Part shown: positions 46,873 through 51,929 of the stretch, in pieces
How positions within the stretch are numbered: the first letter of the stretch is position 1
Layout of the letters: each line of letters starts with the position of its first letter
Program-made: the position numbers and the translations under genes
Notes under the pieces: model-generated
What the model saw: only the letters and a program-made list of their open reading frames with translations
Database searches by the model: none
Told to the model about the DNA's origin: nothing
NCBI GenBank assembly: GCA_021325275.1
Contig: JAJPHL010000068.1
Span: forward strand, 186,001-250,000
Reading direction: 5' to 3'
Source: Terriglobia bacterium
GTDB lineage: Bacteria > Acidobacteriota > Terriglobia > JAJPHL01
Length of the DNA: 64,000 nucleotides

Positions 46873-48054
46873 TTAGCTGAGCAGCAGCTTGCCGATGGTG
46901 GAGAGCTGCATGTTCGTAGTTCCCTCGTAGATGCGCCCGATTTTGGAATCGCGCCACAGTTTTTCCACCGGATAGTCTTTGGTGAAGCCCACGCCGCCGA
47001 AAATTTCAATCGCCATCGACGACACCTTTTCGGCGATCTGCGAGACGAAATACTTGGTCATGGCGGCTTCCTTTAAGAACGGCATGCCCGCGTCTTTCAA
47101 GCGTGCGGCATTGTAGGTGAGCAGTCGCGCCGCTTCCACGTCGGTGGCCATGCGCGCCAAATCAAACTGCACCGCTTGAAATTCCGCGATCGGCTTGCCG
47201 AATTGCTTGCGTTCCTTCGCGTACGCCAGCGCATAGTCGAGCGCCGCGCGCGCCAGTCCCGACATTTGCGCGCCGATTCCGATGCGTCCCTCGTTGAGTG
47301 TTTCGATGGCGATTTTGTACCCCTTGTCGACTTAGCCCATCACGTTTTCGCGCGGCACATGGCAATCCTCGAAGAGCAGCTCGCACGTCGACGACGCGCG
47401 AATGCCGAGCTTGTCTTCCTTCTTGCCGACGCGGAATCCCGGCGCGCCTTTCTCGACGACGAACGCGGTGATGCCCTTGTATCCCACCGACGGATTGGCG
47501 TTCGCAAAAACGATGAACAGCCCCGCTTCGTTGCCGTTGGTGATCCAAAGTTTTTGTCCGTTCAGGACGAAGCCATCGCTTGTTTCAGTCGCCCGGCAGG
47601 CCATCGCGAAGGCGTCCGATCCAGACCCGGCTTCGGAGAGCGCGAAAGCGCCGAGCGTGTCCTTAACCAGGCGCGGAAAGTAGCGGCGCTTGAGGTCTTC
47701 GCTCGCCCAACGCATGAAGATGTTGCTGACCAGCGTGTTCTGCACGTCCACGATCACGCCCGCCGACGCGTCGGCGTAGGAGATTTCTTCGATCGCCAGA
47801 ATGCTTTGGAAAAACGATCCGCCCGCGCCGCCGTATTCTTCAGGAATCTCGATGCCCATCAGTCCCAGGTCGAAAAACTCGCGCAACAGAGCCGAGTCGA
47901 AGTGCGCTTCCTCATCCATCTTGCGCGCTAGAGGCTGAACTTTTTCGCGCGCGAAGTCGCGAACGCTGCGCCGAAACATTTCTTCTTCTTCGGTGAGAAC
48001 GGTGAGAGGAGCGGGACGATCCTGCTGTAAGAGTGCAGTACTTGTTTCCGGCAT
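46873..48054 (-). pseudogene. Acyl-CoA dehydrogenase interrupted by an in-frame TAA
   Basis: Two halves lie in one frame, separated by TAA at 47332-47334. The 5' half (240 residues) has the acyl-CoA dehydrogenase N-terminal and middle domains (IEIPEEYGGAGG, ALSEAGSGSDAF, KLWITNGNEA). The 3' half continues as [20 protein letters not shown] and carries the flavin/C-terminal domain with the catalytic-base region IYEGTTNMQ. The stop sits where relatives have Glu or Gly-Glu (NV-G-E-x-x-KGY), one base from GAA. Repaired length is 393 residues. An internal start at 47265 could make the C-terminal half alone. It would oxidise acyl-CoA with FAD. Real mutation or consensus error is undecided. Confidence 0.88.
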
Positions 48055-50220: not shown

Positions 50221-51330
50221 TCAGGCGCCGAAGAAATCCTTCACCTTGTCGAAGACTCCCTTGGGTGACGGTTGATTGTCGGCTGGCGTGATCGCGGCCA
50301 GTTCGTTCAGAATGCGCCGCTGCTCCTTGGTGAGTCGCGTGGGCACCTGCAATTTGACTGTAACGTACAGATCGCCGCGCCCGTGACCATTCACTACGGG
50401 GATACCCTTGCCGCGCAACCGAAACACGGTGTCGGGCTGCGTGCCTTCGGGAATGTGGAGTTTCTCCTGACCTTCGAGCGTCGGCACGAGCACGTCGTCG
50501 CCGAGCGCCGCTTGCCACACGGTGACAGGAATCACGCAGGCGATGTGCTGTTCGTGGCGTTCGAATACGGGATGTTCGCGCACGCGCAGCACCACGTACA
50601 AATCGCCAGAGGGACCGCCGCGATGTCCCGCTTCGCCTTCGCCTTCGAAACGCAAGCGCGTGCCGTTATCGACACCCGCGGGGATCGCGACCTCCAAAGT
50701 TTTTTCGCGCTTCACGCGGCCCTCACCGCGGCACTTCTGGCAATACGCGGCGATCGTGCGTCCCGCGCCGCGGCACTCGCCGCACGTTCGCGTGACGCTG
50801 AAGAAGCCTTGCTGATAACGCACTTGGCCGGTTCCTCGGCAAGTCCGGCACGTTTCCGGCTGCGTTCCTTTGCGCGCACCAGTGCCGTCGCACTCCGAGC
50901 AGGTTTCGGGACGCGGCACTTTGATGCGCGTCTTCATCCCGAAGGCCGCTTCTTCGAAGGAGATTTCGAGATCGTAGCGCAGATCCGATCCGCGATTGTT
51001 GCGCCGGCCCTGCCGTTGGCCGAACAAATCGCCGAGTCCGAACATTTCGCCAAAATCGCCGAAGAGATCGCCGAGATCCTGGAAATTTCCGTCGAACTGC
51101 TGGCCCGCGAGTCCGGCATGGCCGAAGCGATCGTATTGGGCGCGCTTCTGCTGATCGCTCAACACGCTGTACGCTTCCGCCGCTTCCTTGAAGTGCTCGG
51201 CGGCTTCGTGATTGTCCGGATTGCGATCGGGATGATACTGCATCGCCTTTTTGCGATAGGCGCTCTTGATCTCCTGTTCGGAGGCTTCCCGAGTCACTTC
51301 CAGGACTTCGTAATAGTCGCGCTTGCTCAC
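50221..51330 (-). CDS. dnaJ: Molecular chaperone DnaJ
   Basis: A 369-residue type I DnaJ co-chaperone of DnaK. J domain about 1-70 with YHPDRNPDN (HPD), Gly/Phe-rich region ([12 protein letters not shown]), zinc-binding domain with four CxxCxGxG-type repeats about 140-205 ([12 protein letters not shown] ... [10 protein letters not shown]) and C-terminal substrate domains. GTG start overlaps the grpE stop (GTGA). Full length. Confidence 0.97.
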
Positions 51331-51929
51331 TTCTTCTCCGTTCCCTCGCGAGAAGCCACGCGAACCATGGCCGGCCGCATCAAGCGGTCTTGGAACAAAT
51401 AACCTTGCTGGAAGACGCCGATTACCGTGTGATCCTCATGTTCCGTTGTCGGAACCATCTCGACGGCGTGATGCAATTGCGGATCAAACGGTTTGCCCAT
51501 GGCATCGACGCGCTTCATGCCCATTTTTTCAAGAATCTCGCGCATTTGCTTTTCGACCAGCTCGACACCTTTGCGCATTTCCGCGCCGTTGGAGTTCACC
51601 GGCGCTTTCAGCGCGGCTTCCAGGCCGTCGAGCACCGGCAGCATCGCGGCGACTACGTCCATCGTCGCGGTTACGCGAAACTCGGCGCGTTAGCGCTCGG
51701 TGCGCTTGCGGAAATTCTCGAACTCTGCTTGGCGGCGCAAGAGACTCTCGCGGTGTTCGGCGATTTCTTTTCCCATGCGCGCGCACTCCGCGTTGACGGC
51801 CGCGAACGCGGCGTCCTGCGCGGCGCCGGAATCGCCGGCGGGCGTCGGGTCGGGCGCGCCGCCGGAGGAGTTAGGCGAAGGATTCTCCTGCGGGTCTTTG
51901 TCAGGTTTCTGCGGAAACATACTCATCAT
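51327..51929 (-). pseudogene. grpE: GrpE nucleotide exchange factor interrupted by an in-frame TAA
   Basis: One frame of 201 codons broken by TAA at 51690-51692. The first 79 residues hold an acidic/proline-rich leader and the start of the long coiled-coil helix (AEFENFRKRTER); the remainder continues RAEFRVTATMDVVAAMLPVLDGLE through the four-helix bundle and beta wing ([22 protein letters not shown]). Relatives read ENYRKRTERE-RAEF, so Glu (GAA) is expected at the stop. GrpE releases ADP from DnaK and is normally essential. An internal ATG at 51662 would yield a 111-residue head-domain form. Upstream of dnaJ in an operon. Confidence 0.9.

Follow-up and report, generated by a model that had tools for sequence, protein, structure and literature searches.

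GrpE and in-frame stops in bacterial genes

GrpE (PF01025) is the nucleotide exchange factor of DnaK. Its beta domain inserts into the nucleotide-binding cleft of DnaK (PMC8215388), and its N-terminal tail has been reported to be necessary for enhanced substrate release (PMC12915176). Two descriptions of interrupted bacterial genes come close to the case presented here. In Mycobacterium smegmatis, 28 out of 73 re-sequenced interrupted genes turned out to be sequencing errors (PMC1852416); these interrupted coding sequences (ICDS) are alike in that a lone in-frame stop is found in a conserved gene, with error or mutation as causes, while the present case differs in that it involves two lesions of one type less than 4.4 kb apart and is known from the assembly alone. 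The second description is a survey of many genomes, which revealed that in-frame stops surrounded by sequence under purifying selection are widespread in bacteria (PMC7918605). Also in those genes the coding sequence is conserved on either side of the stop; however, the survey compared close genomes, whereas the relatives available here are distant.

The grpE locus

The gene considered here is located on the minus strand of the window, this being the whole stretch of 64,000 nucleotides that was analysed, and is immediately followed by dnaJ. The features of the two genes are the following:

51327..51929, minus strand: reading frame of grpE with 200 codons before the TGA and one interruption; match to Pfam GrpE of 157 bits with X at the stop
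51690..51692, minus strand: in-frame TAA at codon 80 (TTA on the plus strand); Glu in 103 of 111 relatives
51693..51929, minus strand: 5' part of grpE, 79 residues, made up of the disordered tail together with the larger part of the long helix (from the translation and the alignment with 1dkg)
51327..51662, minus strand: possible re-initiation frame, 111 residues, corresponding approximately to residues 89-197 of E. coli GrpE
50221..51330, minus strand: dnaJ, intact, with 0 of 66 near-invariant columns violated

Translation of the minus strand from 51929 to 51327 gives 79 residues, the TAA and then 120 further residues that end at a normal TGA. With X in place of the stop, the product covers positions 8-164 of the 165 of the PF01025 profile, and its score exceeds the curated cut-off of 25.8 bits. 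The near full-length match and the position of dnaJ immediately downstream are those of a GrpE gene, the nearest solved structures being 4ani, 1dkg and 3a6m; the difference from known GrpE is the TAA at codon 80, which breaks the single uninterrupted frame that goes with the family. In the alignment with E. coli GrpE (1dkg), X80 falls at about residue 79. The genome copy (G000:C26:237690-237692) carries the same base as the window, and the whole-genome profile search flagged the grpE match as containing one TAA. An earlier note on this DNA had described the TAA as splitting an otherwise intact GrpE, and the translation, the profile score and the genome copy all agree with that description.

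The GTG start of dnaJ (51330) overlaps the TGA of grpE as GTGA, and the strong Shine-Dalgarno sequence of dnaJ sits within the end of grpE. Besides the adjacent dnaJ, the partner chaperone gene dnaK is found elsewhere in the genome, at C31:187811-189601, where a full and stop-free match of 877 bits represents the single full dnaK of the assembly. Normal family matches were obtained for the neighbours of grpE, namely dnaJ, a CNNM/CorC-type transporter, an S41 peptidase and an M28 peptidase. The 39-60 kb region was also profiled for coding potential in each frame, which revealed no frame-shift damage near the TAA, the frame changes falling between adjacent genes. A second grpE, for which the earlier note had proposed to search, was not found by whole-genome search in the assembly, a 75-contig draft that is 97.6% complete.

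Conservation of the site and of the gene

The site of codon 80 is occupied by Glu in 103 of the 111 relatives, by Asp in six, and by Ala and Gln in one each, in line with the Glu that the earlier note had expected there. Among the Glu codons, GAG is used 60 times and GAA 43 times, the latter differing from TAA by one base. The sole relative from the same order (L116) has an intact grpE with GAG at this position. Apart from the stop, none of the 24 other near-invariant GrpE columns is violated (25 columns at the 90% level when the stop is included). A search of the contig collection gave no close relative of this species, and the best GrpE matches are 46-52% identical.

GrpE is present in 58 of 61 genomes, i.e. 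the one under study and 60 relatives, with an internal stop in the window copy only. Likewise, in the phylum set of 247 genomes the window grpE is the sole copy with an internal stop among the matches listed, and it is the one such case in roughly 200 GrpE copies listed from related genomes. The internal stop in grpE is beyond chance.

Four drafts of the phylum (G144, G287, G073 and G056; 95-100% complete), two of which (G144 and G287) belong to the same family, have a full-length dnaK and no GrpE match above the cut-off; gaps in the drafts or a divergent exchanger are possible reasons.

A second interrupted gene and the genome-wide scan

A second in-frame TAA, omitted from the earlier note, bears on the interpretation of the first one:

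46873..48054, minus strand: acyl-CoA dehydrogenase gene, 393 codons, with an in-frame TAA inside
47332..47334, minus strand: the second in-frame TAA, codon 241 of the acyl-CoA dehydrogenase; the 18 orthologues have Glu, Gln or Lys here

The two stops are separated by 4.36 kb on the same contig. The terminator of the acyl-CoA dehydrogenase frame is itself a TAA. At 116 columns that are otherwise invariant, this gene carries five substitutions, more than any other of the 19 sequences (0-4), which hints at a real relaxation at that gene. Two codons downstream of the TAA at 47332-47334, an otherwise invariant Gly is replaced by Asp.

Same-frame stops with coding sequence on either side were also searched for in the rest of the genome, using a hexamer model trained on the genome's own long frames. 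The scan, which detects 71% of simulated stops, covered 2.08 Mb and another 0.40 Mb, for a total of 2.48 Mb or about 36% of the genome. It yielded two credible internal stops, those of grpE and of the acyl-CoA dehydrogenase, both TAA; nearly all candidates resemble ordinary gene ends with the next gene directly after. The other candidates, for instance the TAG codons at C26:76034, C26:50560, C26:153647 and C2:96514, were rejected because inspection by eye suggested that a gene ends naturally there and that the next gene or a non-coding frame comes after it. About 100 MFS and ABC transporter genes of this genome have no internal stop; since these genes are stop-free and the scan gave only two interruptions, the genome can be regarded as generally clean. 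Two lesions placed at random would be this near to each other with a probability of about 0.35% (2 x 4.36 kb / 2.48 Mb), a post hoc figure.

A search for 16S rRNA genes gave no hit in the assembly; it also misses 16S in 5 of 14 control genomes. A missing 16S is common in short-read metagenome bins. Together with the draft state of the assembly, this suggests that it is a metagenome bin, and the genome is probably metagenome-assembled.

Origin of the internal stop

We regard a base-call or consensus error in this draft acidobacterial genome as the most likely origin of the TAA, with moderate confidence. With the true base at codon 80, GrpE would then be an ordinary protein of full length, 200 residues, expected to work with DnaJ, encoded by the next gene, and with DnaK, encoded elsewhere in the genome. 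Because both GrpE halves are conserved and the other near-invariant columns are intact, the lesion, if real, must be very young. As would be the case for an ICDS due to error, the lone stop in grpE has conserved sequence to its left and right, and the finding of intact dnaK and dnaJ while the sole grpE is interrupted supports the same reading. That a draft which is clean elsewhere has two lesions within 4.4 kb also favours a local consensus error, and we infer a wrong base call rather than a mutation. With short reads, substitution errors in the consensus are rare, and this counts against an error. So do the substitutions in the acyl-CoA dehydrogenase (5 of 116) and the wide occurrence in bacterial genomes of in-frame stops with dN/dS below 1 (PMC7918605), the latter being also an argument for a real nonsense mutation that arose very recently in the population sequenced, by which GrpE would be lost or strongly reduced. 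Such a mutation is a possible, though clearly less probable, origin of the stop; the cells would have a slow or absent nucleotide exchanger, and readthrough or restart may give trace amounts of product. In its favour, the TAA is a single base off a Glu codon, the nearby acyl-CoA dehydrogenase bears the same kind of lesion, and the strong Shine-Dalgarno sequence that dnaJ has of its own would limit any polar effect; indeed, two recent real nonsense mutations, one in each gene, are possible. However, all other near-invariant columns of GrpE are conserved, the gene is uninterrupted in every other relative carrying one, among the matches listed, and a nonsense mutation in a conserved single-copy gene should face strong counterselection. 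The earlier note had proposed a consensus error as the simplest explanation, and this is supported by the conservation of the two halves and by the lack, in the searches described here, of a second grpE, of recoding, of a suppressor tRNA and of a ribosome-binding site for restart. Most likely, the stray stop in grpE is either an assembly error or a very recent mutation, and so it is ordinary and not new biology. An error here would be a reminder that pseudogenes called in drafts from one stop alone should be backed by reads, and that another such site in the vicinity is a useful warning sign; if the mutation is real, it would represent a natural loss of grpE in a bacterium with dnaK and dnaJ retained, and could be used to test to what extent the exchanger is dispensable.

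Translation could also stop at the TAA and restart at the ATG at 51662, leading to a GrpE in two pieces, in which the 111-residue exchanger would contain the dimer bundle and the beta domain and be devoid of the tail and the long helix. The ATG and the downstream product are as the earlier note had described them: this is the first ATG past the TAA, 10 codons downstream, and the 111-residue product by itself matches positions 63-164 of the GrpE profile with 115.8 bits and includes the beta domain in the alignment with 1dkg, while the N-terminal tail would be missing. Nevertheless, this arrangement is very unlikely. No Shine-Dalgarno sequence is found 5' of this ATG, as the duplex energy between the 20 bases upstream and the standard anti-Shine-Dalgarno sequence is +0.4 kcal/mol, a value equalled or surpassed in strength at 94% of 1534 internal in-frame ATGs; this test is of limited weight, since the annotated grpE start is likewise devoid of such a sequence (+0.6). 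Moreover, Met is present at this site in only 24 of the 111 relatives, so that it resembles any other residue of the helix rather than an evolved start, the upstream half of grpE is conserved too, and L116, from the same order, has an intact gene with GAG. That the TAA is real and that restart has made a 111-residue exchanger the GrpE of this lineage, with a DnaK that can do without the tail and the long helix of GrpE, appears even more improbable. Least credible is the decoding of UAA as an amino acid by reassignment, by a suppressor tRNA or by programmed readthrough. It could account for two genes with an in-frame TAA at Glu-compatible sites, and C6:223469-223539 encodes a degenerate tRNA whose anticodon loop, TTAACG, has only 6 bases; however, UUA could hardly be placed in the anticodon of this odd tRNA without breaking its stem, and ARAGORN assigned the anticodon TTA to none of the 47 tRNA places (Rfam RF00005). 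TAA terminates 212 of 643 gene-end-like frames (TAG 218, TGA 213), and beyond the two known cases there is no further credible internal TAA in the 2.48 Mb scanned. Reassignment of UAA was thus rejected, as the codon is still used as a terminator and is nearly absent in frame from the 2.48 Mb scanned, and ochre suppression was rejected on the basis of the tRNA set, no anticodon UUA having been called at the 47 places.

The tRNA-like gene mentioned above (G000:C6:223469-223539; L210:3469-3539) has no assignable anticodon, and its acceptor stem is mismatched.
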